Positions 15,517-39,910 of a DNA stretch of 40,874 nt are shown here, in pieces. The stretch is from positions 1 through 40,874 of the forward strand of contig CAMDCI010000004.1 in NCBI GenBank assembly GCA_945889715.1, in the 5' to 3' direction. Position 1 is the stretch's first letter. Every line of letters begins with the position of its first letter. The notes under the pieces are model-generated. The model did no database searches. It was given only the letters and a program-made list of their open reading frames with translations, and had not been told where the DNA came from. The stretch is from Bifidobacterium breve. Its GTDB lineage: Bacteria > Actinomycetota > Acidimicrobiia > Acidimicrobiales > Ilumatobacteraceae. Both the position numbers and the translations under genes were made by a program.

Positions 15517-15537
15517 ATCACGAGTCATTAGTTAGTC

Positions 15538-15566
15538 GAGAGCCCGGGTCCGTGACCCGGGCTCTC
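15538..15566 (+). terminator. 13-bp GC-rich hairpin between binding-protein and ATPase genes
   Basis: GAGAGCCCGGGTC-CGT-GACCCGGGCTCTC is a perfect 13-base stem with a three-base loop, followed by TGCTATAACGG instead of a U tract. It is too stable to be accidental. In binding-protein operons such structures either partially terminate or stabilise the upstream mRNA, giving more binding protein than ATPase and permease. It ends 33 bases before the ATPase ATG. Confidence 0.75.
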
Positions 15567-15599
15567 TGCTATAACGGATTATGCACTTCAAGGGGCGAC

Positions 15600-19488: not shown

Positions 19489-19506
19489 CCGATCAAGTTT
19501 AGTTTT

Positions 19507-19998: not shown

Positions 19999-20018
19999 AC
20001 TCCCTCTAGAATTCCCCC

Positions 20019-21985: not shown

Positions 21986-22653
21986 TGCGCGACAATAGGT
22001 GCATGGCTCATCCCGCAGGCACCATCGAAGTCACAGTTGTCAATCATCCCCTCATCGCCGATTCGCTCACCCGTATCCGTGACGTGACAACCCCCAACGC
22101 ATTGTTCCGCCAAGAACTTGAACGAGTTGGAATGCTGTTGCTGGCTGAGGCAACCCGCGATCTGCCGACCATCGAAATCAAGGTCCAGACTCCCCTGACC
22201 GAGACAACAGGTCGCGTTTTGAGTAGCCAGCCAGTTGTGATCCCCGTACTTCGAGCTGGCCTTGGTTTTGTTCACGCGGCCCAAGAACTCATGCCTAATG
22301 CCGACGTCGGATTCATCGGCGTGAGTCGTGATGAGAAAACTTTTGAACCGAAGCAGTACGTCAACAAACTGCCTGAGACTTTGGCGGGACGTACCTGTTT
22401 CGTACTTGACCCAATGTTGGCAACGGGAGGCTCACTCGCTCACGCGTGCGAACTATTGATGGAACGCAACCCAACTGGACCAATCACGGTGATCTGCGTT
22501 TTGGCCGCCCCTGAAGGAATCGAGTTCTTGAAGACGACTGGGCTGAACTTGCGAATCTTTACAGCATCAATTGATGAGCGACTGAATGAAAGCGCGTTTA
22601 TCGTCCCCGGACTCGGCGATGCTGGCGACCGTCAATTCGGTGCTCCCCACTGA
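21985..22653 (+). CDS. upp: Uracil phosphoribosyltransferase
   Basis: Converts uracil plus PRPP to UMP. Markers: the P-V-V-I-P-V-L-R-A-G-L-G segment, PRPP-binding loop V-L-D-P-M-L-A-T-G-G-S, and the uracil-binding C-terminal V-P-G-L-G-D-A-G-D-R-Q-F-G. The ATG at 21985 shares a base with the add stop (TGATG) and gives 222 residues. The ATG at 22003 would give 216 and is nearer the usual ~209 residues, so the first six residues may not be translated. Last gene of the salvage run; a leftward SDR gene converges 66 bases on. Confidence 0.94.
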   Translation: MRDNRCMAHPAGTIEVTVVNHPLIADSLTRIRDVTTPNALFRQELERVGMLLLAEATRDLPTIEIKVQTPLTETTGRVLSSQPVVIPVLRAGLGFVHAAQELMPNADVGFIGVSRDEKTFEPKQYVNKLPETLAGRTCFVLDPMLATGGSLAHACELLMERNPTGPITVICVLAAPEGIEFLKTTGLNLRIFTASIDERLNESAFIVPGLGDAGDRQFGAPH

Positions 22654-22719: not shown

Positions 22720-23613
22720 TCACATAGGTGGTCCGCCCCAAGCGGGAACTCCCGATGGTGCACCACCAAACATTTGATCTTTCGCGGCTGCGAGCGCATC
22801 GACGGTCCACTTCTTGTCGCCACCCGTCACTGAATTAGCGATTTCTGTTGGACGAATGCGGTGCACCTGATCGCCCAACACGATGAACGTTTGTGCATTG
22901 ATATCTGCTGCATGATCGCTCGCCAAGAACGCAACCATCGGACTGATGTTGGCGGGATCGTATTTATCAAAACCAGATTCGGGCTTCGTGAATTTTGGAT
23001 TCACTTCGGTCATTGGCGTGCGGGCACGCGGCGCGATGCAATTGACGGTCACGTTGTAGCGACCAAGTTCGCGAGCAAGGATTGTGGTCATCGTGATGAT
23101 GCCACCCTTGGCCGAACCATAGTTTCCTTGACCAGGACCGCCAAACAAACCGCTTTCGCTCGTGGTGTTAATGATGCGACGTTGCGGCAAACCACCGTCG
23201 GTTCCTTCAAGAACTTTGGCTTGGTTGCGCCAGTAGACCGCCGCGAAGTGTGCCGGAGCGAAGTGACCTTTTAGGTGCACCGAAACCACGCTGTCAAATG
23301 GCGCTTCTTCCATCGAGAAGCTCATCGCATCACGAATGAAACCGGCGTTGTTGACCAAGATGTGCAAATCACCGAACTCGCTGATGGCCCGTTGAACCAA
23401 TGCTTCGGCATCCGCCCAGTCGCTCACACTTCCACGCTGTGCGACTGCACGTCCACCACTCGCCACAATCGCTGCAGCAACGACATCTGCCGATTCGCCA
23501 AGATCATTCACCACGACTGCGGCACCTTCAGCAGCCAATAGTTCGGCATGGCAACGACCAACACCCTGACCTGCTCCGGTCACTATGGCGACCTTGCCGG
23601 TTAATGCACCCAT
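22720..23613 (-). CDS. Short-chain dehydrogenase/reductase (HSD17B4/FabG-like)
   Basis: 297 residues from ATG 23613 (an in-frame ATG at 23655 would place the start next to the operator and adds nothing conserved). Classical SDR: T-G-A-G-Q-G-V-G (12-19) for NAD(P), N-N-A-G (88-91), a serine near 152-154 in N-T-T-S-E-S-G, and Y165-G-S-A-K169. N-D-L-G at 36-39 suggests NAD preference, as in the 3-hydroxyacyl-CoA dehydrogenase part of multifunctional enzyme 2 proteins. The Gly/Pro-rich C-terminal tail (F-G-G-A-P-S-G-V-P-A-W-G-G) is longer than usual. It probably oxidises a 3-hydroxyacyl-CoA in the island's degradation route. The palindrome at 23660 lies 46 bases upstream. Confidence 0.92.
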   Translation of the reverse strand: MGALTGKVAIVTGAGQGVGRCHAELLAAEGAAVVVNDLGESADVVAAAIVASGGRAVAQRGSVSDWADAEALVQRAISEFGDLHILVNNAGFIRDAMSFSMEEAPFDSVVSVHLKGHFAPAHFAAVYWRNQAKVLEGTDGGLPQRRIINTTSESGLFGGPGQGNYGSAKGGIITMTTILARELGRYNVTVNCIAPRARTPMTEVNPKFTKPESGFDKYDPANISPMVAFLASDHAADINAQTFIVLGDQVHRIRPTEIANSVTGGDKKWTVDALAAAKDQMFGGAPSGVPAWGGPPM

Positions 23614-23659
23614 GGCATAACTCCTTATGTTGAACGGCGCCCGAGAGCCCCGCAAAATG

Positions 23660-23680
23660 TTTCTGATACCGTGTCAGAAA
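23660..23680. promoter_or_regulatory. Palindromic operator, site 1 of the island regulon
   Basis: 21 bases, core TCTGATACCGTGTCAGA at 23662-23678, a 10+1+10 palindrome with one mismatched pair. It lies between the divergent SDR gene (start 23613) and the small ORF/amidohydrolase unit (starts 23721 and 23888). The same core, with the same spacing, recurs at 28135 and twice at 38086-38123. Size and symmetry are typical for TetR-family regulators. Confidence 0.75.
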
Positions 23681-23720
23681 CTAGTCGGAATTGAGCAAAG
23701 ACCGATAACCGTTGGGGGCG

Positions 23721-23891
23721 ATGGTGCACACAAAAAACTCAAATCGCCGCCCAGTCGCCCTGATCACTGGGGCAAATCGGGATATTCGACACGAGATCAG
23801 ACGCGCCCAGGAAGATTTGTGCGAAGCGCTTGGCGAGCATGAATTTGAACGCTTACTCTCAATCTCACGCATGAATGGACAACCGCTATGA
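23721..23891 (+). CDS. Possible 56-residue coupled small protein or gene remnant
   Basis: Read directly: ATG at 23721 after GTTGGGGGCG, open to a TGA at 23889-23891 that overlaps the amidohydrolase start (ATGA). That overlap is the same coupling used by real genes throughout the window. The peptide begins M-V-H-T-K-N-S-N-R-R-P-V-A-L-I-T-G-A-N-R and continues with charged, helical sequence (R-R-A-Q-E-D-L-C-E-A-L-G-E-H-E-F). V-A-L-I-T-G-A-N-R resembles the start of an SDR, but the next glycines are missing, so it may be a decayed fragment. Otherwise it is a small leader protein of the operon. Confidence 0.42.
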   Translation: MVHTKNSNRRPVALITGANRDIRHEIRRAQEDLCEALGEHEFERLLSISRMNGQPL

Positions 23892-25117
23892 GCAACCACG
23901 AAACAGACACCTATGTCATTGGGCCGACCAACCAAGACATGTTGCTACCTGATCCCGAGATATCCCCGATCTACTACACCTTGATTTCTGTAGACGACCA
24001 CCTCGTTGAACCACCCGACATGTTCGATGGACGTTTGCCAAAATCTCTACAATCGCAAGCACCGCGACTCGTCGTCAATGAACGCGGCCATCAAGTGTGG
24101 TCCTTTGATAATCAGATCTTTAGTCAGGTTGGAATGAACGCAGTCGTCGGACGTAAGCCTGAACTTCGTTCACTTGAACCAGCACGCTTTGAAGATATGC
24201 GACGTGGGTGTTGGGATATTGACGCCCGCATCAAAGATATGGACCTCATCGGGTGTTGGGCTTCGCTCAACTTCCCATCCCAAGTTGCAGGTTTTGCTGG
24301 TCGTATTTTTAGTGCGTGCAAAGACCCCGAGGTTGGCCACGCAACAATGCGCGCCTGGAACGATTGGCTCTACGAAGAGTGGTGGCAGAAATACCCCGAT
24401 CGAATCATCCCGTGCGGCATTACTTGGCTTGCTCCGGGACCCGATGGCACAGCCAAACTTGGGGCCGATGAGATTCGACGCAATGCCGAACGCGGATTCG
24501 TTTCGGTGACATTGCCTGAACGACCACATAATGTTGGTTTTCCCAGTTTGTTTAGCGGTTGGTGGGATCCGATCATTGAAGCCTGCGTCGAAACTGACAC
24601 TGTGATCTCGTTGCATGTTGGCTCGTCAGGAATGCACGCAATGCCCGAAGGAGCACCTTCACTTCAACTCGGCGCCACTTTGTTTGGCCAACTCTCTCTC
24701 ACTGCATGCGCCGAATGGTTGTGGAGCGGATACGCAGATAAATACCCCACGCTGAAGATTGCGATGAGCGAGGGTGGCATTGGTTGGGTCCCGATGTTGC
24801 TTGATCGTCTTGAAAATGTCGTTGATCGCAGCGGCTATGGAGCCGGTTGGGATATTCGTCCTGCCGATTTATTGCGCCGCAACTTTTGGTTCTGCACCAT
24901 CGACGACCCATCAACAATCGATCTCCATGATGTCATTGGCGACGATCACATCATGGTTGAAATCGATTACCCCCATGGCGACAGCACCTGGCCGAACAGT
25001 CAATCCATTTTGCGAGATGCTTGGGGCCACTTGTCTCCACAACTCCTGCGTAAGTTTTGCTGCGAAAATGCCGCTGCGCTCTACCGTCATCCCCTGCCAG
25101 CACGAATCGTTCCATGA
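23888..25117 (+). CDS. Amidohydrolase-2 family metal-dependent hydrolase
   Basis: 409 residues, TIM-barrel family of the ACMSD/5-carboxyvanillate decarboxylase type, acting as hydrolases or non-oxidative decarboxylases. Metal and active-site residues visible: Asp36 and His38 in S-V-D-D-H-L-V-E-P-P, His243 in S-L-H-V-G-S-S-G, Glu295 in S-E-G-G-I-G-W-V-P, and Asp360 in E-I-D-Y-P-H-G-D-S-T-W-P. The W-P-N-S segment and this size are typical of actinobacterial members near steroid and aromatic degradation genes, whose substrates are mostly unknown. Coupled by ATGA to the small ORF before it and to the acyl-CoA synthetase after it. Both lie downstream of operator site 1. Confidence 0.92.
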   Translation: MSNHETDTYVIGPTNQDMLLPDPEISPIYYTLISVDDHLVEPPDMFDGRLPKSLQSQAPRLVVNERGHQVWSFDNQIFSQVGMNAVVGRKPELRSLEPARFEDMRRGCWDIDARIKDMDLIGCWASLNFPSQVAGFAGRIFSACKDPEVGHATMRAWNDWLYEEWWQKYPDRIIPCGITWLAPGPDGTAKLGADEIRRNAERGFVSVTLPERPHNVGFPSLFSGWWDPIIEACVETDTVISLHVGSSGMHAMPEGAPSLQLGATLFGQLSLTACAEWLWSGYADKYPTLKIAMSEGGIGWVPMLLDRLENVVDRSGYGAGWDIRPADLLRRNFWFCTIDDPSTIDLHDVIGDDHIMVEIDYPHGDSTWPNSQSILRDAWGHLSPQLLRKFCCENAAALYRHPLPARIVP

Positions 25118-26775
25118 CCACTGTTGCCTCTCTGCTCCGAGCCAGAAAAGGCGACCAAAACGCCGGCTACATCTTTGAAGGACACACCTACACCTGGGAT
25201 CAAGTTGTTTCTGAGTCGGCAATTCGTGCCTCAATTTTGGCCGAACTACTTTCTGATGACCGCCCGCCTCATGTCGGAATCCTTCTTGAGAACACCCCGG
25301 ACTATCTCTTTTGGATCGGCGGCGCAGCACTTGTTGGTGCATGCATCGTTGGCATCAACCCAACTCGGCGCGGAAGTGAATTAGAACGCGATATTCAGCA
25401 CACCGATTGCCAAATCATCGTGAGTGATCAAAATGGCATCAAACTTATTGATGGTTTACAAATAGGAGTCGATGCGAACAAAGTTATTGACGTTGATTCC
25501 GTTCAACATCACAATCAACTTCGACAACATCGTGATGCGGCACTCCCCGATCACGAACCCGACGAAAATAGCATTCTGTTCTTACTCTTCACATCTGGCT
25601 CAACAAGCGCACCCAAGGCTGTCGTTTGCACCAACCAACGGATGGCAACCGCCAGCGTGCGCGCTGGGCAAATTTACGGCGTCACCGCCGACGAAATTTG
25701 CTATTGCCCGATGCCACTATTCCATGGCAACGCGTTGATGGCCTGTTGGGGGCCCGCCCTTGCCGTTGGAGCAACTCTGGTTCTTCGTCGCAAGTTTTCT
25801 GCAAGCAATTTCATGCCCGATATTCGGGCACATCAATGCACCTATTTCACCTACGTGGGTCGCACGATCGCCTACATCCTTGGCCAACCCGTTTCGAGTG
25901 AGGATCAAAACAACACGTTGCGTCTCGGGTTTGGCACAGAAGCCAGCGCTCTTGATCGCGAACGTTTCCTCGAACGATTCGGTTGCGACCTGGTCGAAGG
26001 TTATGGATCAAGCGAAAGTGTCGTCGCAATCATTCGCACTCCCGACACACCGACTCACGCACTTGGCAAAGAACGAGCCGATATGGCTGGTCAAGTGTGC
26101 ATCGTTAATCCCGATACCAATGTTGAGTGCCCGAGAGTTCAATTTGACGAATTTGGGGCAATCACTAATCCAGAATGCATCGGTGAAATCGTCAGTTTGA
26201 GCGGTGGAACTTCGTTTGAGGGTTACTACAACAATCGAGAAGCGTCAACCGAACGCGTTCGTAACGGCTGGTATTGGACGGGAGATCTTGGTTATCGCGA
26301 TGACGCCGGGTTTTTCTATTTTGGTGGACGAAGCGCCGATTGGTTGCGCGTCGATAGTGAGAACTTTGCGGCCGGACCGGTTGAAAACATCGTTTCACGA
26401 TTTCCCGGAGTCATCATGGCTGCGGTCTACCCCGTTCCCGACCCAACAACTGGCGACATGGTGATGGTGGCTATTGAGATGAACGAAGCAAACCAGTTCT
26501 CACCGCACGAATTTGATGAGTTCTTATCTCAGCAGCGTGATCTTGGCACCAAATGGTCACCACAAATTGTTCGGGTGATCGAAGCGATGCCACTCACCGC
26601 CAACAACAAAGTGCATAAGCCACCGCTACGTGCGAGCAAATGGCTCACGTCAGATTCGCACTATTGGCGATCAGAGCGCAACCAACCCCTACAACTCATG
26701 ACCGACTCCGACAAGAATGATCTTGAACAACGCTTTGCATCAAATGGCCGAAGCCATATTTTGTCGGCGCTCTAA
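25114..26775 (+). CDS. Acyl-CoA synthetase (AMP-forming), copy 1
   Basis: 553 residues from ATG 25114 (ATGA overlap). Activates a carboxylic acid to its acyl-CoA through an acyl-adenylate. Phosphate loop T-S-G-S-T-S-A-P-K (160-168), the A5-like G-Y-G-S-S-E-S (297-302), Y-W-T-G-D-L-G-Y (387-394), hinge G-R-S-A-D-W-L-R-V-D-S-E-N-F (405-418) and the C-terminal catalytic lysine Lys499 in N-N-K-V-H-K. The N-P-T-R-R-G segment (82-87) is shared with FadD17-type ligases of steroid side chains (family recollection, not a search). It is paralogous to the ligase at 29167-30843. The substrate is probably a bulky acid, but this is inference. Confidence 0.93.
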   Translation: MTTVASLLRARKGDQNAGYIFEGHTYTWDQVVSESAIRASILAELLSDDRPPHVGILLENTPDYLFWIGGAALVGACIVGINPTRRGSELERDIQHTDCQIIVSDQNGIKLIDGLQIGVDANKVIDVDSVQHHNQLRQHRDAALPDHEPDENSILFLLFTSGSTSAPKAVVCTNQRMATASVRAGQIYGVTADEICYCPMPLFHGNALMACWGPALAVGATLVLRRKFSASNFMPDIRAHQCTYFTYVGRTIAYILGQPVSSEDQNNTLRLGFGTEASALDRERFLERFGCDLVEGYGSSESVVAIIRTPDTPTHALGKERADMAGQVCIVNPDTNVECPRVQFDEFGAITNPECIGEIVSLSGGTSFEGYYNNREASTERVRNGWYWTGDLGYRDDAGFFYFGGRSADWLRVDSENFAAGPVENIVSRFPGVIMAAVYPVPDPTTGDMVMVAIEMNEANQFSPHEFDEFLSQQRDLGTKWSPQIVRVIEAMPLTANNKVHKPPLRASKWLTSDSHYWRSERNQPLQLMTDSDKNDLEQRFASNGRSHILSAL

Positions 26776-26783
26776 TTCAAATC

Positions 26784-27320
26784 TCAGTTTTCTGATTTCC
26801 AGATCTGCCAAGACTCAAGGCATTCAGGCAACTCACCTCGGCCCGTTTGATTTGCTGGCCAATTCGCGTCATCGAGTCCTACTGGAGCGTTAGGCATGGT
26901 GTGGCCGTACCACAACAAGTGCTTACGTCGAGCGAACAACCAATGTCCTTCAACACACTTGTATGTATCGTGATATTGAATTTGTTGGATGATCCAGTTT
27001 CCATCGGCATCTTCAATTTCACCACGACATGACACAATTCCAGTCGCGCTGAACTGATCAGCAACATCGATCAAATGATTGTTAACTTGCAGAATGACAC
27101 GACCCAATGCGTGCATCTGACTGTCAAAACTTTCTTTCAAGGCCTGCGTTCCCGAAGATTCTCTCGTCACCTTGATATCTGGAATAAACAGCCCGGCAAG
27201 ATTTTGCGTATCTCGAGCACCATAGAAAATCGCGTACCGGCTTGCTAGTTGACGAATCTCTTCAGATGCAATCAGCCACGCAACGGGGTCAACATGCCGC
27301 AATGCATTCGAGTGTGTCAC
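26784..27320 (-). CDS. NTF2/SnoaL-fold protein (SnoaL_4-like, possible dehydratase or isomerase)
   Basis: 178 residues. Fold seen in E-E-I-R-Q-L-A-S-R-Y-A-I-F-Y-G-A-R-D, the opening helix of the SnoaL-like family, then strands containing V-N-N-H-L-I-D-V and Y-H-D-T-Y-K-C-V-E-G-H-W-L-F-A-R-R-K-H, the usual closing strands. This family includes scytalone-type dehydratases and the bile-acid 7-alpha-dehydratase BaiE; most actinobacterial members are untested. Candidate polar pocket residues are Tyr24, Asp28 and the His in N-N-H and Y-H-D. Its start overlaps the stop of the SDR gene upstream (ATGA), so the two are co-translated and probably act on the same compound. Confidence 0.85.
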   Translation of the reverse strand: MTHSNALRHVDPVAWLIASEEIRQLASRYAIFYGARDTQNLAGLFIPDIKVTRESSGTQALKESFDSQMHALGRVILQVNNHLIDVADQFSATGIVSCRGEIEDADGNWIIQQIQYHDTYKCVEGHWLFARRKHLLWYGHTMPNAPVGLDDANWPANQTGRGELPECLESWQIWKSEN

Positions 27321-28108
27321 GTTCGCGGACCTCCCGGCAGTGGATGGGGATGAGCGGTTGGTTGTAGCAGTGCATCGGTCCCACCATCAACAAACAAAAT
27401 TTGACCAACCACGTACGAAGCTTCTTGCGAACCCAAGAATGCGATCGCACTCGCGATTTCTTCTGGTTGGCCCCAACGGCCTCGAGGTATCGGAATCATG
27501 TCAAGAGAATCCTTCACACCTGGCATATCGAGCAACGGACGCGTCATGCCCGTATCAATCACGCCTGGCGCAACCGCATTGATTCGTACTCCTGATTTCA
27601 TCCATTCGGCAGCATTCATTCGAACCCAGAAGGCAATCGCCAATTTGCCAGCAGGATATGCGACGAAGGCTGCAGGAGAACTAAAACGCGCGACAACCGA
27701 TTCTTCATCTTGCTGCATATAGGCCATGGCGTCATCGACCGACAGGCCAGGAGTCATCGTTGTCGAGTTTGAAGAAATCATCACAACGGCCGAGTTCGTT
27801 CCTTTTTCAAGCGCTGGACGCAGACCATTGACAATGGCCAAGGTTCCAAAGAAATTCACGCGCACAATCAGTTCGTTTGGTACAGGGGTGCTGACACCAG
27901 CGCATGGCACCAGTCCATCCAAGACTCCCCCGCACAACGCGTTCACTTCATCAACAATCCGCTGTCGATCGGCGGGCTTTGCAAGATCGCCGCACACATC
28001 GGCGTCTCGAAGATCGACTCCGATCACTCGATGGCCCTGAGCGACAAGTTTTGCCTGTGTGGCAGCACCAATTCCTGACGCCGTTCCTGTGACACAGATT
28101 GTCCCCAT
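27317..28108 (-). CDS. SDR of the 3-alpha-hydroxysteroid dehydrogenase/carbonyl reductase type
   Basis: 263 residues from ATG 28108 with GAGGGG seven bases upstream; the 20 extra in-frame codons would run over the operator. T-G-T-A-S-G-I-G (7-14), then V-D-L-R-D-A-D-V near 31-38, which closely resembles the V/I-D-I-R-D-A-E-V of Comamonas 3-alpha-HSD/carbonyl reductase. Also present: C-A-G (69-71), serine near 112, Tyr151-P-A-G-Lys155, a long insert between the serine and the tyrosine (113-148), and G-R-W-G-Q-P-E-E-I. NAD preference is suggested by Asp32. The likely reaction is oxidation of a ring hydroxyl. Regulated with the divergent oxidoreductase through the operator at 28135. Confidence 0.92.
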   Translation of the reverse strand: MGTICVTGTASGIGAATQAKLVAQGHRVIGVDLRDADVCGDLAKPADRQRIVDEVNALCGGVLDGLVPCAGVSTPVPNELIVRVNFFGTLAIVNGLRPALEKGTNSAVVMISSNSTTMTPGLSVDDAMAYMQQDEESVVARFSSPAAFVAYPAGKLAIAFWVRMNAAEWMKSGVRINAVAPGVIDTGMTRPLLDMPGVKDSLDMIPIPRGRWGQPEEIASAIAFLGSQEASYVVGQILFVDGGTDALLQPTAHPHPLPGGPRT

Positions 28109-28134
28109 GACTGCCCCTCGATTCAAATTCCGTT

Positions 28135-28151
28135 TCTGACAGTGTGTCAGA
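28135..28151. promoter_or_regulatory. Palindromic operator, site 2 of the island regulon
   Basis: TCTGACAGTGTGTCAGA: perfect seven-base arms around three bases, the same core spacing as the sites at 23662 and 38086/38107. It sits in the 79-base gap between the divergent SDR (start 28108) and oxidoreductase (start 28188) genes, so a bound repressor could shut both promoters. Confidence 0.75.
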
Positions 28152-28187
28152 TCGCAGGAGTACTTCACGGATCGCTACGGTTGAGTC

Positions 28188-29162
28188 ATGCGTTCCATCG
28201 TTTGCAATCAGTTTGCCCCCCTGTCCGAATTGCGGCTTGAGGAAAAGCCTGCGCCCGAACTCTTCCCAGGTTCTGTTCGTATTGCCGTCACAGCATGTGG
28301 CGTTAATTTCGTTGATGCCCTATTTGTTCAAGGCAAATACCAAATCAAACCGCCAACCCCATTCGTTCCAGGAATGGAAGTCGTCGGCCGCATTACCGAA
28401 GTCGCCCCAGACGTCACTGATGTGCCGCTCGGTTCGCGAGTATTCGCCAATGTTGGCCTCGGAGGCTTTAGTTCTGAGGCGGTCGTGTCGGCCAAGCGAA
28501 TCATGAAACTGCCCGACACTCTGTCTGATGGTCAGGCAGCAACGTTCATGCAAAGTTATCTCACCGCCTGGTTCGCACTTGTTGAACGCGCTCATGTCGA
28601 ACGCGACAAGTGCCTCTTGGTTTTAGGTGCCGGAAGCGGAGTCGGCCTTGGCGCAGTTGATGTCGGCCGGGCACTCGGGTTGCGTGTCATCGCTGCCGCT
28701 TCAACTGAAGAAAAACGCAATCTTGCGCTCGAACGCGGTGCATTCGCCGTGATTGATTCGACTCTTTCAGCGGACGAAGTCAAGGAAGAGGCCAAGCGTC
28801 TCTCTGGTGGTGGAATTGACTACCTATACGACCCCGTCGGTGGCGATCTTGGCGAAACTTGTTTACGCGCGCTCACCGATGACGGTCAATATCTGGTGAT
28901 TGGCTTTGTGGCCGGTATCCCGAAGCTTCCGGCCAATCAGGTGTTGTTACGCAATCGCCGAGTTACGGGCGTTGATTGGGGCGGATGGGCCGGCAAGAAC
29001 CCCGGGCTCAATGACCGTATGTTGACTGAAGTCATGGCTTTGATTGCGGCTGGAGAACTTCGACCTGTCGAACCCCAGACATATCCGTTAGAACAGGCAG
29101 CACAAGCCCTACAAGATCTCGAAGACCGCAAGGTCGCCGGCAAAATAGCGTTGATCCCCTAA
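28188..29162 (+). CDS. Zinc-independent medium-chain oxidoreductase (quinone/enoyl reductase type)
   Basis: 324 residues. MDR superfamily, NADPH:quinone oxidoreductase branch. Catalytic-domain start with G-V-N-F-V-D-A-L (38-45), F-V-P-G-M-E-V-V-G (59-67), and nucleotide loop G-A-G-S-G-V-G (147-153), followed by G-A-V-D-V-G-R-A. The Cys/His zinc ligands of alcohol dehydrogenases are absent. Members reduce quinones, 2-alkenals or enoyl-CoA double bonds with NADPH; it may handle a double bond in the island's pathway. It sits 36 bases from operator site 2 and converges on the ligase gene with a four-base gap. Confidence 0.92.
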   Translation: MRSIVCNQFAPLSELRLEEKPAPELFPGSVRIAVTACGVNFVDALFVQGKYQIKPPTPFVPGMEVVGRITEVAPDVTDVPLGSRVFANVGLGGFSSEAVVSAKRIMKLPDTLSDGQAATFMQSYLTAWFALVERAHVERDKCLLVLGAGSGVGLGAVDVGRALGLRVIAAASTEEKRNLALERGAFAVIDSTLSADEVKEEAKRLSGGGIDYLYDPVGGDLGETCLRALTDDGQYLVIGFVAGIPKLPANQVLLRNRRVTGVDWGGWAGKNPGLNDRMLTEVMALIAAGELRPVEPQTYPLEQAAQALQDLEDRKVAGKIALIP

Positions 29163-29166
29163 CGAA

Positions 29167-30843: not shown

Positions 30844-30853
30844 CACTGCATTG

Positions 30854-32974: not shown

Positions 32975-32992
32975 TGATTCTCTCGAAGACTT

Positions 32993-35815
32993 TCAGTCTT
33001 TGGTATTGCTGCGCTGGATTGCACGTTCATCGGTTCCTAGATAACTCGCAATCACCGCTGGATTGTTTCGGATTGCAGCCGGAGTGCCTTCTGCGATCAC
33101 ATGACCAGCTTCGAGACAATAAATGCGATCAGAAATAGACATCACCATGGGCATGTCATGCTCAATAATCAAAATTGAAGCTCCGAGTTCTTCTTTAATC
33201 AGGCGAATGAGTGGTCCGAAGGCTTCAGTTTCTCGTTGTGCAACACCAGCAGTTGGTTCATCAAGCAACATCAGCTTCGAATCCAAAGCAATCAAGGAAC
33301 CAAGCTCGACGATGCGTCGAGTTCCGGTTGACAATTCACCCATCAATGAGTCGGCGTAACGACCCAGACCAAGATACGAAATGATTTCGTCAGCTTCGCG
33401 TCGTTTTCTTCCCTCATGTTTTGGCGACGGAGGCAGCGCCAAAATTGATGGAATAAGAATGGAACGTTGACGAGACTCAAGAGCGACCATCAACGTTTCA
33501 CGAACAGTCAGCGAACTAAATAGTCGCGCATTTTGAAATGCCCGACCTTGGCCCAGTCGGGCACGCTTATATGCCGGCATCTTTGAAATGTCTTGACCAA
33601 ACAGTTCGATGATTCCCGACGAAGGCACAAAACCCGATACCGCATTGAGGATCGTTGTTTTACCTGCACCGTTTGTTCCGATGAGACCGACTACTTCACC
33701 GCTTCGAACTTCCAGCGAGACGTCATTAATGATCGTGCGTCCACCCAATGTGACATAGAGACCCTTTGTCACCAACGGTGACTCTGTTTCTTTTACTTGC
33801 TTACCAGTGCCGAGCGAGGCGACTGCCACGCCATCTTTACGAACTGGAGGTGTCCAATTTGAACGACGCGCAATCCAGTTCAACAAATTGTCTCGCGCGG
33901 CGTGAACGATTGAAATCAGTCCACTCGGGAAATACAGAAGAACAATCAACATTCCGAATCCACTAGCAAAAAGTTCAACTTGTTTCGTGCCGTCAAAGAA
34001 AAGCGGAACGGCAATGATCAAAAGGGTTCCCAAAACGGCTCCGGTGATGGAACCGATACCCCCGACCACAGCTACCGAAACAATGCGTAACGATTCATCA
34101 AAGTCAAAAAGCAATCCATCAACCTTGAATTGAGCATTGCGCGCGACCAGAGGCAACAAGCCGCCTGCCAAAGCCGCAAGTCCACCCGATACCGCAAAGG
34201 CCAAAAGTTTGGCCCGGTTCGGGGCGACCGTGTAGGCCGAAGACGCTGTCTCGTTGTCTCGCGTTGCGATGATTGATCGCCCGATTCCGGTGCGACGAAT
34301 TCTCCAAACCAACAAACATGACACGAGCGCCATCAGCAAAACGAAGTAGTACACCCCGTCAAAGTTTTTACCCTTGACGGTCCAGAAAATTAAGCGGAAA
34401 CCTTCATTTCGATCAACGTTGAGCTGCGCACTTCCACCGCCACCAGGAGCGAACTTCTCACCAACGATGAACCATGAACGAATCGCCAAGCCGAATCCCA
34501 AGGTGACTACAGCGAGGTACAAACCCTTCACGCGCAATGCCGGAATTCCGACAATGACAGCGGCAATGACACCCCACGTTACGCCAATCGGTAGTGCCAC
34601 CAAATATGGCAGGTCATTGGCGTAATGGATCGTGAGATACGAGCCAAGGGCGACGAACCCGAATTGGCCCAACGAAAGTTGTCCACCCCAACCAGTCACC
34701 ACCGTGACCGAGAGGGCAATGATCAGATACACCGGGACCGAAGAAAACTTCAGCATGTCGCTGGCCTTATCGACTTGGCTAGGAAGTACCAGTGCAAGCG
34801 CAGCGATCAGACCGAATCCCGCAAATGTCAAACCTCGATACAACGGATGCTTCGTCAATTCAACACGAGCGGCACGAACTTTAGAAGAGAGTTGCCAAGC
34901 CTCGTCTTTCATCGACGCCGAACGTCCGACCGTGAACAGCACGACGATGATGACGACAAATAGTACGGCGATATTTGAACCTGTCGGCAAGTCACCGCTT
35001 AATGACCATGTAATCAAGAATCGATCAACAACGCCAGCCAAGAGTCCGCCGACAAGTGTCCATGTAAACGATTTCATTCGGCCCACCATCGCCGCGACAA
35101 GCGAGAGAAGAAGCATCTTGGGACCCAAAGCATTTTGCACCGAAGCAATCGATCCACTTTGTAGCGGGGCAATTAATAGTGCGCTCAATGCTGCGAGCAA
35201 TCCGGCCAATGCCCACACCTTTGTTGAGACACTGCGAACTCCGATTCCGGCAAGACGAGCTGCCGGGAAATTATCCGCAGTCGCGCGAACATTCATACCG
35301 AATGCGCTGCGATGGAATAACCAACCCAAAAAGAGCATCAGTACTGGCACAAAAAGCAGCACAGTGAGCTGTGGGCCCGTGACATTGATGCCGGCAACTT
35401 TCCAACTACCACTAATCAGCACAGGGAAAGTGACATTGGTTGCTTGTTCATCCGGAATAGGTAGACGTAACTGCAGCAACTGAATCACTTGTGTCAGACC
35501 AAGAGTGGCAACGAAAAGCAAGAGCCGAGGTTGAGTAAACAGGCGTCGAAGCACTAACTCTGCTGCGACACCAAGCAACACTCCACAGATCAAGGCAATG
35601 GGCAACGACAATCCGTAGGCGATGTCATAGCGCACTTGCAAGAGCGCCATGATGTAGCCGCCAAATGCACCGATTTGTCCGTGCGCAAAGTTGATAACTC
35701 CCGTCGCTCGATAAATCAGCAACAATCCAAACGCAACCAATGAATAGACGAGCCCTTGTATGAGCCCATCGAACAAAATGTTGTTGGAGTAGGTCAGAGC
35801 GATGAGTGCACTCAT
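32993..35815 (-). CDS. Fused branched-chain-type ABC transporter: LivH-LivM permeases plus LivG ATPase in one chain
   Basis: 940 residues. About 1-300 is a LivH permease (Y-R-A-T-G-V-I-N-F-A-H-G-Q at 35-47). About 325-645 is a LivM permease (G-W-G-G-Q-L-S-L-G-Q-F-G-F at 375-387, R-D-N-E-T-A-S-S near 519). About 680-930 is a LivG ATPase with Walker A G-T-N-G-A-G-K-T-T (713-721), Gln761, signature L-S-T-G-T-R-R (828-834), Walker B L-M-L-L-D-E-P (848-854) and His886. These are normally three proteins; LivH and LivM alone form the membrane channel. The ATG overlaps the stop of the MFS-LivF gene (ATGA). Family members import amino acids, but relatives carry many other small organic acids. The setting suggests the island's substrate. 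Confidence 0.93.
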   Translation of the reverse strand: MSALIALTYSNNILFDGLIQGLVYSLVAFGLLLIYRATGVINFAHGQIGAFGGYIMALLQVRYDIAYGLSLPIALICGVLLGVAAELVLRRLFTQPRLLLFVATLGLTQVIQLLQLRLPIPDEQATNVTFPVLISGSWKVAGINVTGPQLTVLLFVPVLMLFLGWLFHRSAFGMNVRATADNFPAARLAGIGVRSVSTKVWALAGLLAALSALLIAPLQSGSIASVQNALGPKMLLLSLVAAMVGRMKSFTWTLVGGLLAGVVDRFLITWSLSGDLPTGSNIAVLFVVIIVVLFTVGRSASMKDEAWQLSSKVRAARVELTKHPLYRGLTFAGFGLIAALALVLPSQVDKASDMLKFSSVPVYLIIALSVTVVTGWGGQLSLGQFGFVALGSYLTIHYANDLPYLVALPIGVTWGVIAAVIVGIPALRVKGLYLAVVTLGFGLAIRSWFIVGEKFAPGGGGSAQLNVDRNEGFRLIFWTVKGKNFDGVYYFVLLMALVSCLLVWRIRRTGIGRSIIATRDNETASSAYTVAPNRAKLLAFAVSGGLAALAGGLLPLVARNAQFKVDGLLFDFDESLRIVSVAVVGGIGSITGAVLGTLLIIAVPLFFDGTKQVELFASGFGMLIVLLYFPSGLISIVHAARDNLLNWIARRSNWTPPVRKDGVAVASLGTGKQVKETESPLVTKGLYVTLGGRTIINDVSLEVRSGEVVGLIGTNGAGKTTILNAVSGFVPSSGIIELFGQDISKMPAYKRARLGQGRAFQNARLFSSLTVRETLMVALESRQRSILIPSILALPPSPKHEGRKRREADEIISYLGLGRYADSLMGELSTGTRRIVELGSLIALDSKLMLLDEPTAGVAQRETEAFGPLIRLIKEELGASILIIEHDMPMVMSISDRIYCLEAGHVIAEGTPAAIRNNPAVIASYLGTDERAIQRSNTKD

Positions 35816-38016
35816 GCGCCAGCTCCTGACAAGAAGACGGCTCGCAAAAGATCGTCGCGGTCAAGAAGTTCTTGGGCCGGTCCCTCAAACTTCACCTCGC
35901 CTCGTTCCATAAAGACAGCACGATCGGCAATCGAGAGAGCCACGTTCACCGATTGTTCAACGATGACCATGGTGACTCCTTGCTCTTTGAGCTTCTCCAC
36001 AATCTTCAACAAATCTTGCACGACAACGGGCGCCAGACCGAGCGAAAGTTCGTCGATGCACAACAGCTCGGGATCGAGCATGACTGCCTTGGCTAACGCC
36101 AGCATTTGTTGCTGACCACCCGACAACGATCCAGCTCGCTGGTCTCGTCGCTGCCACAAAATGTCAAATGTTTCGTACACCCGCGCTAATTTTTCTTTGC
36201 GCTTGCCGTGGTCGGCGATCTGACGGCTCCACACCTGAAGGTTTTCTTCAACCGTCATCGAACTAAACACCGCTTCGCCACCAGGAACTAGCACCAATCC
36301 CATCGAGGCTCGGTATTGCGGTTCAACCAAAGTGATCGTGCGACCATTCATGCGCACGACTCCGCGGTCGGGCATCACAAGCCCCGAAATCGCCTTCAAG
36401 ATCGTTGACTTGCCCGCACCGTTAGTTCCGAGCAATGCAAGGACTTCGCCTTTACGAACATCAAAACCTACGTCAAAAAGAACCTGCAAGTTTCCATAGC
36501 TGACATCCACATTGCGTACTTGCAACACCGGAATATTGCCAGGATCATTTTGCAAGCGCCGCAACTCAGATTGTTGCTCTTTCAACTCGCTAATTGTGAG
36601 CGCAATATCGCGTTTCATAAATCGACTGCCATAAATGATTAACAGACTGCCCAACAATGCGGCCGGCGGAACGACCGACGTCAGCGCGGTTCGTTCACCG
36701 TGTGCGTCAGACAATCCACCAGCGAGAAGACCGCCAAAGAAGCCGCCCATCAAGAAGATATACACGCCAACCATGGCGAAAGCTTGCGAACGCATTTGGT
36801 ACGGGACGATGGCAGAAATGGCCGGACCCATTTGCGTGAATGCCGCGCCTTGGAATGCATTGCCAATAGTGACAAAAGCAATCATCACGGCAGCGCTTTG
36901 AAAGCGCAGACCTACCGTGACGAAAATTCCGTAACAAAGAATGCACACGCCCATCATTCGTAAGGCCGATGGTGGATTGCGCCTGAACAACTTTTCACCA
37001 ATACGTCCGGCTAGTGGAATTCCAATGAGTGCGCCAGACCAAGTGATGGCCCCTACCCAGCCACGCTTGAACGCGCTGTAGTCGTAGGTGTTTTTCAAGA
37101 GCAAGTTAAATGCACCAGGCACTGCGATGAGCGCAAACCCGAGAACACCAATGCCGACAACTAAGAAATAGAAAGTGCGTACTTTCTTTAATCGCTGAAA
37201 AGCGGCCGACAACAACACCGGCGGTTCTGCCTCTGCCTCAACAACTTCTGTACCCAAAACTGCTTGTTGTTCTTGACGGCCACGCTTTGGCTCTTTCAAA
37301 GTGAACGACCACAAGATTGTTAAACCTGCTGGGATAAGTAATGCAAAGAAAACGATTCGCCAGTCGCCGGCATCATCGCCGGCAGCAACAACGATTGCCC
37401 CAGCAAACAATGGTCCGAGCACTTGACCGAGTGGTCGACCAAGTGCTTCAATCGCGAAGATTCGCGTCCGAACAGCAAGCGGGTATTGATCGGCGACAAG
37501 AGATGGCCCAATAGGCACCCGGGCCGAAGCACCAAAACCCGAGCCGGCACGTGCCAATCCCATCTGGAACGTGTTGACGACCGACCCAGTGATCGCGACA
37601 AATGCCAGCCATAAGGCTGATGCTGCCGAAATCACCCGAACTCGGCGGCGGCGATCGGCCAGCCAGGCAAACGGCATCGTTGCTAACACCAAAACCACGC
37701 CACCAAAACTTTGTAAACCGAGAAGAACTGTGTCGGACACTCCAAGAGTTGCCTGAATATCTGGTCCAAGGACTTGCATCGCCACCCGGTCGAACTCTTC
37801 AAAAATAGTGAACAGCAGCAAAACCGTGGCCACTCTGAATCCACCAATGCGCAGGCCTTCGCGCAACTTCATCGATTCTTGGGGGGCCGCTACGTCATCG
37901 TCGGCTTCATTGGCCTGGGCGTCGCGATCCCGGCGACTTTGCTCATCGACCACAATCGATGAAGCCAGCGCCGCAGCCGAAGGTCCGGCGACTTGTTTCC
38001 CCTCAAATTCCTGCAT
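35812..38016 (-). CDS. MFS permease fused to LivF-type ABC ATPase
   Basis: 734 residues. Residues 1-55 are polar and acidic. About 58-468 form a 12-helix major facilitator domain with a motif-A-like W-L-A-D-R-R-R-R (118-125) and A-F-Q-G-A-A-F near 387. A coiled linker (475-492) leads to a LivF ATPase: Walker A G-T-N-G-A-G-K-S-T (530-538), signature L-S-G-G-Q-Q-Q (631-637), Walker B L-L-C-I-D-E-L (651-657) and Q-S-V in the switch position. It supplies the LivF partner missing from the 940-residue fusion. Start with AGGGGG five bases upstream; first gene of the leftward unit behind the tandem operators. MFS–ATPase fusions occur in actinobacterial genomes, but I know of no tested member. Confidence 0.93.
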   Translation of the reverse strand: MQEFEGKQVAGPSAAALASSIVVDEQSRRDRDAQANEADDDVAAPQESMKLREGLRIGGFRVATVLLLFTIFEEFDRVAMQVLGPDIQATLGVSDTVLLGLQSFGGVVLVLATMPFAWLADRRRRVRVISAASALWLAFVAITGSVVNTFQMGLARAGSGFGASARVPIGPSLVADQYPLAVRTRIFAIEALGRPLGQVLGPLFAGAIVVAAGDDAGDWRIVFFALLIPAGLTILWSFTLKEPKRGRQEQQAVLGTEVVEAEAEPPVLLSAAFQRLKKVRTFYFLVVGIGVLGFALIAVPGAFNLLLKNTYDYSAFKRGWVGAITWSGALIGIPLAGRIGEKLFRRNPPSALRMMGVCILCYGIFVTVGLRFQSAAVMIAFVTIGNAFQGAAFTQMGPAISAIVPYQMRSQAFAMVGVYIFLMGGFFGGLLAGGLSDAHGERTALTSVVPPAALLGSLLIIYGSRFMKRDIALTISELKEQQSELRRLQNDPGNIPVLQVRNVDVSYGNLQVLFDVGFDVRKGEVLALLGTNGAGKSTILKAISGLVMPDRGVVRMNGRTITLVEPQYRASMGLVLVPGGEAVFSSMTVEENLQVWSRQIADHGKRKEKLARVYETFDILWQRRDQRAGSLSGGQQQMLALAKAVMLDPELLCIDELSLGLAPVVVQDLLKIVEKLKEQGVTMVIVEQSVNVALSIADRAVFMERGEVKFEGPAQELLDRDDLLRAVFLSGAGA

Positions 38017-38085
38017 ATTCCCCCTGAAACTTCTCTTGGAACAATAGTGCGACTCAGTTCAACTTCTCACGGCGAATCAGAAAAA

Positions 38086-38102
38086 TCTGACGGACCGTCA
38101 GA
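38086..38102. promoter_or_regulatory. Palindromic operator, site 3a (tandem pair)
   Basis: TCTGACGGACCGTCAGA, a perfect 17-base palindrome with the same spacing as sites 1 and 2. It lies in the 188-base gap between the leftward transporter unit and the rightward binding-protein gene. Its centre is exactly 21 bases from that of site 3b. Confidence 0.8.
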
Positions 38103-38104
38103 AG

Positions 38105-38125
38105 TTTCTGACGGACCGTCAGAAA
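38105..38125. promoter_or_regulatory. Palindromic operator, site 3b (tandem pair)
   Basis: Perfect 10+1+10 palindrome, core TCTGACGGACCGTCAGA at 38107-38123, identical to site 3a. Spacing of two helical turns puts both sites on the same face of the DNA, so two dimers could bind cooperatively. A further half site GTCAGA follows at 38128-38133. Confidence 0.82.
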
Positions 38126-38204
38126 CGGTCAGATTCTCTGCTAAGTTGCCCATGCGGCTGGTCTCGTGGCCAACCGACTTCACAACTTCCGAGGGGGATA
38201 TCAC

Positions 38205-39671
38205 ATGAAGAAATCACGTATTGCGCTGGCGTTCGTCGCCGGCGCATCACTCATCGTTGCCGCTTGTGGCGGCGATGACGGAGGCTCAGTAGCAACTGAG
38301 GCTCCCGCTGCCAGCGAGGCTCCGGCCTCAAGCGAAGCTCCTGTTACTGACGCACCAGCCGAAGAACTCACAGCCTCAGACATCGGCATCACTGCCGACA
38401 CCATCAAGATTGGCGTCGCGGTCTCTGACCTCGAAGCCATTCGAGCCATGGGAATCTCGATTCCCGAGACCTTGACGACCGACCACTTGTTTGATCGTTG
38501 GAACGTCTTCTTCGAAAAGTGGAACGCCGAAGGCGGCATTAACGGACGTATGGTCGAACCAGTTCGCCTCGTCTGGAACCCGCTTGACCCAAGCACGTTC
38601 GATACTTTGGTTGCCGAAGCAACGGTCAACAATGAACTGTTTATGGTCGTGAATGGAACCGGATTGTCCTCGACCGCACGTGGATTACTCCTCGCCGCCG
38701 GCGTACCAATCATGTACGGAGACGTCATGGGCCGGGCAGAACTTGACACCGGTCTCGCGATTTCTCTCTCCGCACCATCTGAAACTGTTGCTGAAGCCGG
38801 AGTCACCGCATGGATGGACTCAACTGATGCAGCACCTGGTTCAGTTGTTGGAGTTCTCTCGAACAATACTTTGGTCGGGGCTGCCGCGGGCAAAGCGGCT
38901 GAAGCTGCGTTGACCGCTGGTGGATTCACTCCGAAGTTGATTGAGATCAACTCAACGCAGGGCGACGCAGCTGCCACCAATGAAGAAGGCGCAGCAGCCG
39001 TTGCGGTCTTCGAAGCTGAAGGCGTTGTGCAGACTTTCGTTTCGACACCGTTCACTGAAACCCAAGGTTTCTGGGGTGCTGCTGCCGCTGCTGGTTTGAA
39101 GTTCTCGTTGCTTGATACTTCATCATCTGGTTGTTCAGCGTTCGGTTTGAGTCGTGCTCCAGCTGCTGCCGTTGGCAGTGACTGCGTCACCGCTTACGAC
39201 CACTCGACTGACGGAACCTCAATTCGCCCCGACACCGAGTTCGAAGCAGAATGCCGTGCGTTCTTTGATGCAAGTTTCTCCGAGTATTACGGTGGACCTT
39301 CCAACCCAGGCGTGCCAGCAGGAAACGTTTATACCGATGCCAATGGCAAGACTTTGAATTCGGACTACACGCCCCAAGAATGTGCGTTGGCCAACATCAT
39401 CAATCTTGGATTGACAGCAGCGGGCGTTAACCCGACCCGTCAGTCATACATCGATGCTGTGTTGAACCTTGGCGAAGTGCCGTTGGCACTTGCTGGTGGC
39501 GGAACTGGCATGTTTGAGCCAGGCAAGCCATTCGCAGCCAATGCATTGCACACAGTGCGAATCACTGCAGCAGCGCTTGACACCGCACCAGATGCGAACG
39601 GTTTGTACAACGGTTGTGCAGCACCGGTCAACTGTGGTGTTGTTGTTGGCGATTGGACACCCATTAGCTGA
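38205..39671 (+). CDS. ABC transporter substrate-binding lipoprotein (branched-chain amino acid type)
   Basis: 488 residues from ATG 38205 with GAGGGGG seven bases upstream; the in-frame ATG at 38166 adds non-signal residues. Signal peptide and lipobox I-V-A-A-C with Cys21, then a low-complexity Ala/Pro/Glu/Ser tether (S-E-A-P-A-S-S-E-A-P) and a type I periplasmic-binding fold beginning I-K-I-G-V-A-V-S-D. N-A-E-G-G-I-N-G-R is the usual Leu/Ile/Val-binding-protein signature. It is the external receptor for the two fusion proteins encoded divergently, controlled by the same operators. Two Cys pairs in the C-terminal half may form disulfides. Ends in a strong terminator. Confidence 0.93.
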   Translation: MKKSRIALAFVAGASLIVAACGGDDGGSVATEAPAASEAPASSEAPVTDAPAEELTASDIGITADTIKIGVAVSDLEAIRAMGISIPETLTTDHLFDRWNVFFEKWNAEGGINGRMVEPVRLVWNPLDPSTFDTLVAEATVNNELFMVVNGTGLSSTARGLLLAAGVPIMYGDVMGRAELDTGLAISLSAPSETVAEAGVTAWMDSTDAAPGSVVGVLSNNTLVGAAAGKAAEAALTAGGFTPKLIEINSTQGDAAATNEEGAAAVAVFEAEGVVQTFVSTPFTETQGFWGAAAAAGLKFSLLDTSSSGCSAFGLSRAPAAAVGSDCVTAYDHSTDGTSIRPDTEFEAECRAFFDASFSEYYGGPSNPGVPAGNVYTDANGKTLNSDYTPQECALANIINLGLTAAGVNPTRQSYIDAVLNLGEVPLALAGGGTGMFEPGKPFAANALHTVRITAAALDTAPDANGLYNGCAAPVNCGVVVGDWTPIS

Positions 39672-39806: not shown

Positions 39807-39855
39807 CCACTTTGGAATATGGTTGCCGCCTAGCGGCAGCCATATTCCAAAGTGG
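39807..39855. repeat. Near-perfect 23-bp inverted repeat
   Basis: Arms 39807-39829 and 39833-39855 pair with a single mismatch (a G-U in RNA) around the loop CTA; the left arm begins CCACTTTGGAATATGG. It directly follows the terminator and ends 55 bases before the AbiEi-like gene. Its outermost eleven bases recur at the right end of the window, which suggests a repeat family and not only a second terminator. Confidence 0.75.
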
Positions 39856-39910
39856 GGAAATTGCTGATTGGTGGTCGCCGAAAACTTGGCCCCATTCCCA
39901 CATTTTGGAC

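Follow-up and report, generated by a model that had tools for sequence, protein, structure and literature searches.

A palindromic operator and a candidate TetR-type repressor of a predicted steroid uptake and degradation regulon in Acidimicrobiia

Which regulator reads a palindrome that recurs through a 17-kb stretch of catabolic and transport genes, and which compound do those genes serve? To our knowledge, the freshwater Ilumatobacteraceae (acIV) are an uncultured lineage whose diet is poorly known. A scan of the window, that is, the whole 40,874-nucleotide stretch of DNA, located TCTGAYRNNNYGTCAGA exactly on the + strand at 23662, 28135, 38086 and 38107, the four places named in the original prediction, with arms and spacer constant across them, as it had also claimed. 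Copy 1 (TCTGATACCGTGTCAGA, 23662 to 23678) lies between an SDR gene and a small ORF/amidohydrolase unit, and copy 2 (TCTGACAGTGTGTCAGA, 28135 to 28151) between a second SDR gene and a quinone-oxidoreductase-like gene. Copies 3 (38086 to 38102) and 4 (38107 to 38123), both exact, form an array with a period of 21 bp together with a degenerate operator at 38065 to 38081, copy 3 being in the middle; this degenerate copy is the single extra place found when up to two mismatches to TCTGAYRNNNYGTCAGA were allowed. Under the stricter core TCTGACN5GTCAGA, three copies remain exact and copy 1 carries one change (TCTGAT). Since all four copies fall within three divergent gaps, they cover six transcription units, and the gene layout bears out what had been proposed on this point. 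In genome G007, the same 21-bp pair is found at the same 9951-bp distance from copy 2.

The window holds nine strand-matches to TCTGAYRNNNYGTCAGA at five places, where shuffled sequences gave 1.65 expected and none of 100 reached nine; none of the 179 other orderings of the half-site letters, searched as palindromes of the same form, matched the window exactly. Every copy could form an RNA hairpin, and the copy at 38086 is followed by T residues and scores as terminator-like on the - strand, so that the palindromes might be read as hairpins or intrinsic terminators. This reading is very improbable: the arms are fixed in sequence beyond what pairing alone would need, the copies lie where genes begin, frequently in divergent gaps, and one would not expect terminators to follow the distribution of a TetR gene among genomes.

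The genes flanking the operators encode enzymes and an importer. Left of copy 1 is an SDR oxidoreductase (22720 to 23655, - strand, likely ATG at 23613); to its right lie an amidohydrolase of the Amidohydro_2 family (23888 to 25117, +) and an acyl-CoA ligase (25057 to 26775, +). Copy 2 separates an SDR oxidoreductase (27317 to 28108, -) and a SnoaL_4 protein (26784 to 27320, -), for which the earlier assignment to NTF2 was right in fold and the family can be given more exactly, from a zinc-type dehydrogenase/quinone oxidoreductase-like protein (28188 to 29162, +). Four genes on the - strand follow: a second acyl-CoA ligase (29167 to 30894); an OYE-type NADH:flavin oxidoreductase (30854 to 32974), mistaken at first for a flavin reductase; a fusion of Liv-type permeases with an ATPase, assigned as LivH-LivM-LivG (32993 to 35815); and an ABC ATPase, taken to be LivF, carrying a fused MFS domain (35812 to 38016). 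Beyond the array is a putative substrate-binding lipoprotein (38166 to 39671, +, likely ATG at 38205), which had no Pfam match at E 0.001. The best NCBIfam match of both ligases is steroid-22-oyl-CoA synthetase (CasI, NF052587), with 689.5 and 602.3 bits, respectively, under the curated cut-off of 900, and that of the OYE-type protein is BaiCD, with 408.2 bits under a cut-off of 825.

The palindrome is not restricted to this stretch. In the 2.08-Mb genome, TCTGAC-N5-GTCAGA occurs in 13 exact copies against 0.12 expected, and in 19 copies when one change is allowed; the reversed motif gave none. The original prediction saw the motif nowhere else in the window, which is correct, save the degenerate copy, but does not extend to the genome, and the idea of an island confined to the window was rejected for the same reason. 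Random scatter, which would have spoken against a regulon, is not what these counts show, and a chance origin was rejected on the counts in the window, the genome and the TetR loci against shuffled, permuted and reversed controls. The operator set numbers about sixteen in the genome, mostly before genes resembling those of steroid breakdown and uptake; the neighbors include ligases, SDRs, ACADs, ECH, amidohydrolases, CoA transferases and DUF35/ChsH2. One operator, on contig C2, lies between an SDR gene and an EchA20 candidate, and another precedes a DUF35 gene whose downstream neighbor in G017 is an SCP2-thiolase-type gene.

IpdA is a steroid C/D-ring hydrolase. The best PDB match of the IpdA protein is chain A of 6co6 (E 5e-98) and that of IpdB is chain B (E 5e-76); we take 6co6 to be IpdAB, the entry itself reading "probable CoA-transferase." EchA20-like, IpdA, IpdB and IpdC-like genes are grouped together, and EchA20, IpdA, IpdB and IpdC are described as enzymes of the HIP pathway in PMC5380842. 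From these sequence matches, a steroid is the most likely compound class, and the substrate is probably a carboxylated, bile-acid-like steroid. A regulon for some other polycyclic or alicyclic acid, terpenoid-derived or the like, whose homologous enzymes do not act on steroids, would fit the failure of CasI and BaiCD matches to reach their cut-offs. It would also fit the setting of the regulator's relatives in Streptomyces and G275, which adjoin thiolase/DUF35 genes: four Streptomyces-type loci have no IpdA homologue, and the ten G275 proteins include no CoA transferase. We regard this reading as unlikely, given the matches to solved IpdAB entries, the grouping of the HIP pathway genes, and the presence of IpdA in every one of the 48 genomes of the class that carry the regulator (0 of 135 genomes lacking IpdA carry it). 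The EchA20 candidate had no PDB match at E 1e-30, and the single Rieske protein examined, from the C2 run, was not closest to a steroid hydroxylase.

The regulator gene had been reported as absent; it is indeed absent from the window, but a candidate TetR of the TetR_C_38 type is present on contig C32 (10928 to 11560). It closes an ADH-ligase-SDR-SDR-TetR run, and because an operator (C32:6430) stands at the head of this run, the gene is probably autoregulated. TetR_C_38 scored 64.2 bits against a cut-off of 23.9 and a TetR_N domain at C32:10997-11113 scored 30.8 bits against 24; TetR_N was not listed at E 1e-6 in the whole-protein Pfam scan. The model of a relative with 94% identity (L109) is all-helical (pLDDT 93) and matches EthR of Mycobacterium tuberculosis, which is the closest solved relative by profile (E 2.6e-12) and comes first by fold (TM 0.73), yet with 19% identity. 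We know of no role for EthR as a steroid regulator.

We surveyed 198 genomes of the class, calling TetR at an E value of at most 1e-50 with at most 15 TetR candidates scored per genome. TetR was present in 33/33 genomes with at least three exact sites and in 15/165 others; with two or more sites, the figures were 40/43 and 8/155 (Fisher p 3e-30). A survey of the phylum (296 genomes, 35 of them of the class, at most 10 candidates scored per genome) gave 18/21 versus 7/275 (p 2e-20), and outside the class 11/13 versus 6/248. Since the number of candidates per genome was limited to 15 or 10, some TetR absences may be misses. Three class genomes with two sites lacked a strong TetR, as did three genomes of the phylum survey, G066 being common to both. 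Eight of the 48 TetR-positive class genomes had fewer than two exact sites, four of these none, and in G035, which has IpdA and matches the TetR at E 1e-34, no exact site occurs. Around 80 TetR relatives, 1.145 Mb of surroundings contained 37 exact sites, whereas 60 permuted palindromes averaged 0.18 with a maximum of 5.

In 21/45 TetR-positive loci, spanning 11 families, and in 1/14 TetR-negative ones, the 2.2 kb upstream of IpdA contained a site with at most one mismatch; 100 permuted controls gave a mean of 0.24 and a maximum of 6/45. The remaining 24/45 TetR-positive ipdA loci had no such site. The conservation upstream of orthologues on which the original prediction hinged is thus found in other families, though not in all genomes. 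Comparison across genomes shows a predicted regulon that is conserved and that goes with this TetR subfamily and with IpdA.

Could the operator be read by another regulator, the C32 TetR being merely linked to the same pathway? In our genome the TetR itself has no operator within 400 bp of its start, 11 TetR_N matches are present, and G021 (60% complete, five exact sites) and G028 (93%, three exact sites) carry sites with no TetR match. We nevertheless hold this to be rather improbable. Among 63 IpdA-positive genomes, two or more sites occur in 40/48 with TetR and in 2/15 without; the association persists outside the class; and eight other TetR_N frames of our genome, a 58-aa frame on C120 being outside the count, have no site with up to two mismatches within 400 bp of their start. 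In relatives, moreover, sites do lie at the TetR itself: an exact operator is beside its start in L076, and a site begins 46 to 63 bp ahead of the TetR match in L127 (exact) and in L131, L149 and L157 (one mismatch each). In the more distant relatives L118, L120, L122, L136 and L190, TetR is clustered with orthologues of window genes, as labeled by blastp against 53 proteins of our genome, labels not individually checked, with crude ORF calls in GC-rich relatives; the one-change form seen in copy 1 (TCTGATACSGTGTCAGA) is near TetR in these five and in L125.

We consider it quite probable, on sequence grounds, that the consensus WTCTGAC(G/A)SNS(C/T)GTCAGAW is the operator of the TetR_C_38-type repressor and that the two govern a steroid uptake and degradation regulon. 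We infer that the C32 TetR would bind the palindromes in promoter gaps, of which many are divergent. Bound TetR would silence genes that import and activate the steroid and break down its side chain and rings, until it was released by an intermediate of the pathway, for which an acyl-CoA thioester is plausible; the exact substrate is likewise inferred.

KstR and KstR2, the regulators that have been described for steroid catabolism in actinobacteria, are known from mycobacteria and rhodococci. We presume that Rv3549c and Rv3550 are an SDR gene and echA20. According to PMC3068626, KstR2 is a TetR-type repressor whose palindromic operator occupies divergent gaps, one of them between Rv3549c and Rv3550, and its proposed regulon comprises 15 genes plus its own operon; in PMC5380842, this regulon encodes EchA20, IpdAB and IpdC. 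The placement of the operator before echA20-ipdAB genes, as read from sequence, is like that of KstR2, but the corresponding mycobacterial operon carries the KstR2 operator (AnCAAGnnCTTGnT in PMC3068626) instead of TCTGAC-N5-GTCAGA, and the Liv-type import genes that share the operator here set this regulon apart. The full AnCAAGnnCTTGnT motif had no match in 17 stretches of the genome totaling 178,368 bp, where its CAAGnnCTTG core alone matched nine times. By name, no KstR2 molecule was among the best 60 of 61 PDB matches or the 18 profile matches to the TetR.

KstR3 (Mn_4965) of Mycolicibacterium neoaurum is described in PMC10398937 as a negative regulator of the TetR family that shares an operon with aldolase and DUF35 genes; the DUF35 gene preceded by a site here, with its SCP2-thiolase-type neighbor in G017, resembles that operon by description, and the main text of that paper contains neither "motif" nor "palindrom." EdcR of Caenibius tardaugens (estradiol) is likewise a TetR repressor of a steroid pathway with a different proposed operator, TnnCnnTACnAnTnGTAnnGnnA (PMC8700777). 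The predicted regulon resembles the KstR/KstR2/KstR3-like regulons in kind. The accessible literature, largely without subscription journals and seen in part, yielded no description of the pair: among the matches listed, the papers found through the TCTGAC/GTCAGA half-sites did not deal with steroids, those found through the motif in combination with steroid regulation were unrelated, and TGACNNNNNGTCA was in none.

The proposal that an undescribed TetR-type regulon serves the uptake and breakdown of one compound is supported by comparison, with a genome-wide set in place of a 17-kb island. In the phylum outside the class, related TetRs with an operator nearby adjoin other catabolic genes of thiolase/DUF35 type, so "one compound" may not hold there. 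We lean toward the view that TetR_C_38 and the operator would be an ancient pair, serving thiolase/DUF35-type and other catabolic genes in Actinomycetota and some Proteobacteria and Myxococcota, which in Acidimicrobiia, including freshwater acIV, would act as master switch for taking up steroids and degrading their side chain and C/D rings, in the place that KstR2 has in mycobacteria, with the promoters shared and the operator different. This would be a candidate case of promoters rewired to a different repressor. The operator could serve as a genome-wide, sequence-only marker of pathway genes, including many unassigned enzymes and a Liv-type importer, and it yields a defined candidate repressor-operator pair amenable to gel shift or reporter assays.

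Two further one-mismatch copies in our genome are at C103:2806 and C212:2609. Near-matches of the form TCTGATCCGTAGTCAGA in other genomes were set aside as tRNA-Arg anticodon stems (one checked, L203), and the copy at C48:10782 in our genome resembles them.

A scan of the window re-found the palindrome at all four positions named in the original prediction, the core TCTGACN5GTCAGA being exact at 28135, 38086, and 38107 and carrying one change at 23662. A degenerate copy at 38065 forms, with 38086 and 38107, an array with a period of 21 bp, or two helical turns. With permuted palindromes as the control, none of the 179 other half-site permutations had an exact match in the window. Throughout the MAG (G000; 2.08 Mb in 227 contigs, 80.7% complete), of which the window is contig C4, the exact core occurs 13 times, compared to none for the reversed control and 0.12 predicted from base composition as measured in 17 stretches of the genome, so the proposed genome scan speaks against random scatter; with one mismatch allowed, there are 19 copies and 1 in the control. 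The consensus over 15 sites is WTCTGAC(G/A)SNS(C/T)GTCAGAW, with the sites on contigs C133 and C213 counted once, since these are strain copies (89% identity across 2076 bp). One-mismatch matches on C103 and C212 fall outside the contexts listed below, and that on C48 looks like a tRNA stem. Matches of the one-mismatch form TCTGATCCGTAGTCAGA are taken as a false-positive class for the motif, the one examined, at 248 in locus L203, falling inside a tRNA-Arg gene; further TCTGATCCGTAGTCAGA near-matches are present in genomes G025, G027, G031, and G035. Contig pairs L039/L040 and L032/L035 are ~89% identical, from which the MAG seems to be a mixture of two related populations.

Outside the window, sites lie between genes for SnoaL_4 and an amidohydrolase (C1:1223), RibD_C and an acyl-CoA dehydrogenase (C15:16659), Amidohydro_3 and an aldehyde dehydrogenase (C22:13791), and luciferase-like and enoyl-CoA hydratase proteins (C22:17760), between TauD and an ADH-ligase-SDR-SDR-TetR run (C32:6430), and beside amidohydrolase-ligase (C32:2748), acyl-CoA dehydrogenase (C164:2567), acyltransferase (C205:367), and DUF35/ChsH2-like (C205:2865) genes; some start codons of these neighbors are uncertain, and a few open reading frames as called overlap their own site. 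One-mismatch sites at C133:3419 and C213:3092 adjoin luciferase-like genes; on the opposite side of the former is a PemK/MazF-like toxin gene (L032 2713-3057).

Site C2:1157 lies between an SDR gene and a run encoding EchA20-like, IpdA, IpdB, and IpdC-like proteins. The C2 IpdA and IpdB are closest to the two CoA-transferase chains in structure 6co6, taken here to be IpdAB; the same gene order is found in M. tuberculosis, where Rv3549c is an SDR gene and Rv3550 is echA20. The adjoining NMO-family protein is closest to FabK, as is IpdC in a report that places EchA20, IpdAB, IpdC, and IpdF, enzymes of the HIP pathway, in the KstR2 regulon (PMC5380842). KstR2 binds between Rv3549c and Rv3550, according to PMC3068626, whereas the SDR/EchA20-like gap of G000 has TCTGACGCTTCGTCAGA instead. 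The best scores are to the steroid-22-oyl-CoA synthetase CasI for the window ligases and to BaiCD for the OYE protein, all of them below the curated cutoffs. In G017, a site leads a DUF35 gene followed by an SCP2-thiolase-type gene also matching the lipid-transfer protein 6ok1, and steroid side-chain aldolases show the same pairing. Liv-type ABC import would suit a soluble, carboxylated steroid.

A profile search of G000 returned 11 TetR_N matches. The original prediction sought a TetR gene with the motif in its own promoter: no site with up to two mismatches lies within 400 bp of the start of any of nine TetR frames examined, but one of them, C32:10928-11560, is the last gene of the run behind site C32:6430 and overlaps the stop of the upstream SDR gene. 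The C-terminal half of this candidate (the TetR) matches TetR_C_38; in fold it is similar to EthR, with DesT, FasR, and FadR ranked lower. Near-identical proteins are encoded on contigs titled as MAGs of acIV Actinomycetes, Ilumatobacteraceae, and Acidimicrobiales, some of lake origin, and we therefore take the host class to be Acidimicrobiia and the lineage to be freshwater. Loci L108, L136, and L142, with relatives 96, 57, and 47% identical, are titled Bifidobacterium breve, titles that look wrong.

Among the nearest 41 genomes, at least five exact sites are present in 21 of 24 genus members, G000 included. A strong TetR match was found in 20 of these 21 (that in G015 being a contig-edge fragment, E of 1.5e-43), the exception being G021 (60% complete), and an IpdA match, sometimes fragmentary, in all except G017. 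The genus members G001, G011, and G019, with 0 or 1 site, have no strong TetR (best E of 2e-4) and no IpdA; G035, from another family, has both proteins and no exact site. We then scored TetR (E ≤ 1e-50) and IpdA (E ≤ 1e-40) in 198 genomes sampled from the class Acidimicrobiia. TetR was detected in 40/43 genomes with at least two exact sites versus 8/155 with fewer, and in 33/33 with at least three versus 15/165 others. All 48 TetR-bearing genomes have IpdA, and none of 135 IpdA-less genomes has TetR. Among the 63 IpdA-bearing genomes, two of which (G163 and G183) are weak matches of ~37% identity, at least two sites are present in 40/48 with TetR versus 2/15 without it (P = 1.5e-6), which sets the TetR, as distinct from the pathway, as what the operator tracks. 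Exceptions are eight TetR-positive class genomes with 0 or 1 exact site and a few genomes with sites in which TetR was not detected.

Conservation upstream of orthologues in relatives, also part of the original prediction, held for a portion of ipdA loci. The search covered 45 of the 48 TetR-positive genomes (all but G000, G132, and G210) and 14 of the 15 TetR-negative ones (all but G165); upstream sequence was short in G061 and G149 and shortest in G140 (14 bp). Within 2.2 kb upstream of ipdA, an exact site was present in 14/45 versus 0/14 (permuted mean, 0/45), a site with up to one mismatch in 21/45, spanning 11 families, versus 1/14 (0.24/45), and with up to two mismatches in 26/45 versus 2/14 (3.42/45); about half of the TetR-positive ipdA loci thus have no site at up to one mismatch. 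Site-to-ipdA distances are of two kinds, 34-98 bp and 668-848 bp, the latter leaving room for an echA20-sized gene.

In a phylum survey of 296 genomes, 35 of them from Acidimicrobiia, TetR was found in 18/21 genomes with at least two exact sites versus 7/275, and outside the class in 11/13 versus 6/248 (P = 1e-13). Eleven of the 25 TetR genomes, eight with at least two sites, belong to one genus of 6- to 10-Mb genomes taken as Streptomyces and are thus not independent. At most 15 (class) or 10 (phylum) TetR candidates were scored per genome, so that a small number of absences could be misses. The neighborhoods of 80 named TetR relatives contain 37 exact sites (permuted-palindrome mean, 0.18). 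By record title, 33 of these are in 23 of 53 mostly actinobacterial loci and 4 are in 4 of 14 proteobacterial or myxobacterial loci, with none in 11 Streptomyces-type loci or 2 others. The shorter CTGACN5GTCAG occurs 11 times in the Streptomyces-type loci (permuted mean, 0.22; maximum, 3), 10 of these in two look-alike loci, L175 and L184, 6 times in the proteobacterial set (0.34; 6), and 40 times in the actinobacterial set (1.66; 20). In L175 and L184, paired sites spaced 24-27 bp surround a related TetR; the L175 region also has thiolase, DUF35/ChsH2, ACAD, and FMO-like genes. Other thiolase/DUF35 genes accompany the TetR in G275 and in Streptomyces-type loci, and the subfamily is therefore broader than steroids.

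TetR also clusters with orthologues of window genes in L118, L120, L122, and L136 (TetRs 54-59% identical to that of C32) and in G175 (L190), from another genus of the same family; subsets of the SDR of 22720, amidohydrolase, CasI-like ligases, or OYE protein vary by locus. Sites with the one-change form TCTGATACSGTGTCAGA, as at 23662, are located at a distance of 2.1-4.4 kb from the start of TetR in L118, L120, L122, L125, and L136 and ~2.5 kb from it in L190. They precede other amidohydrolase genes than that of the window, and site-by-site orthology to 23662 is therefore not proven. G007 keeps the window spacing, with 21 bp between the two right-hand sites and 9951 bp to the 28135 site.

Sequence comparison supports the candidate operator, its putative regulon, and their link to the TetR; binding, repression, ligand, and substrate are what we infer. 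In the absence of substrate, TetR dimers would sit in the promoter gaps, with the array suggesting that binding at the transporter promoters is tighter or cooperative. Their release would be triggered by a CoA-thioester intermediate, a ligand proposed because of the resemblance to EthR and, less closely, to the fatty acid regulators DesT, FasR, and FadR. TetR repressors of steroid pathways are already known (KstR, KstR2, KstR3, and EdcR); in the literature searched, we found no publication giving the TCTGACN5GTCAGA operator or the C32 TetR. A 430-aa protein of G000 with two TetR_N domains (L041 747-2036, contig C174) shares the double-TetR architecture reported for Mce3R in PMC11667970.

Within the window, 35812-38016 encodes an MFS permease fused to a LivF-type ABC ATPase (734 aa), and 32993-35815 encodes two Liv-type permease domains and an ATPase in a single 940-aa protein; this fused transporter architecture is unusual. 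The run at 14457-22653 (Bmp binding protein, ABC ATPase, two permeases, PhyH, adenosine deaminase, and UPRTase) looks like nucleoside import and salvage. The protein encoded at 39812-40843 combines an AbiEi_4 antitoxin-type N terminus with a DUF559/REase-like C terminus.
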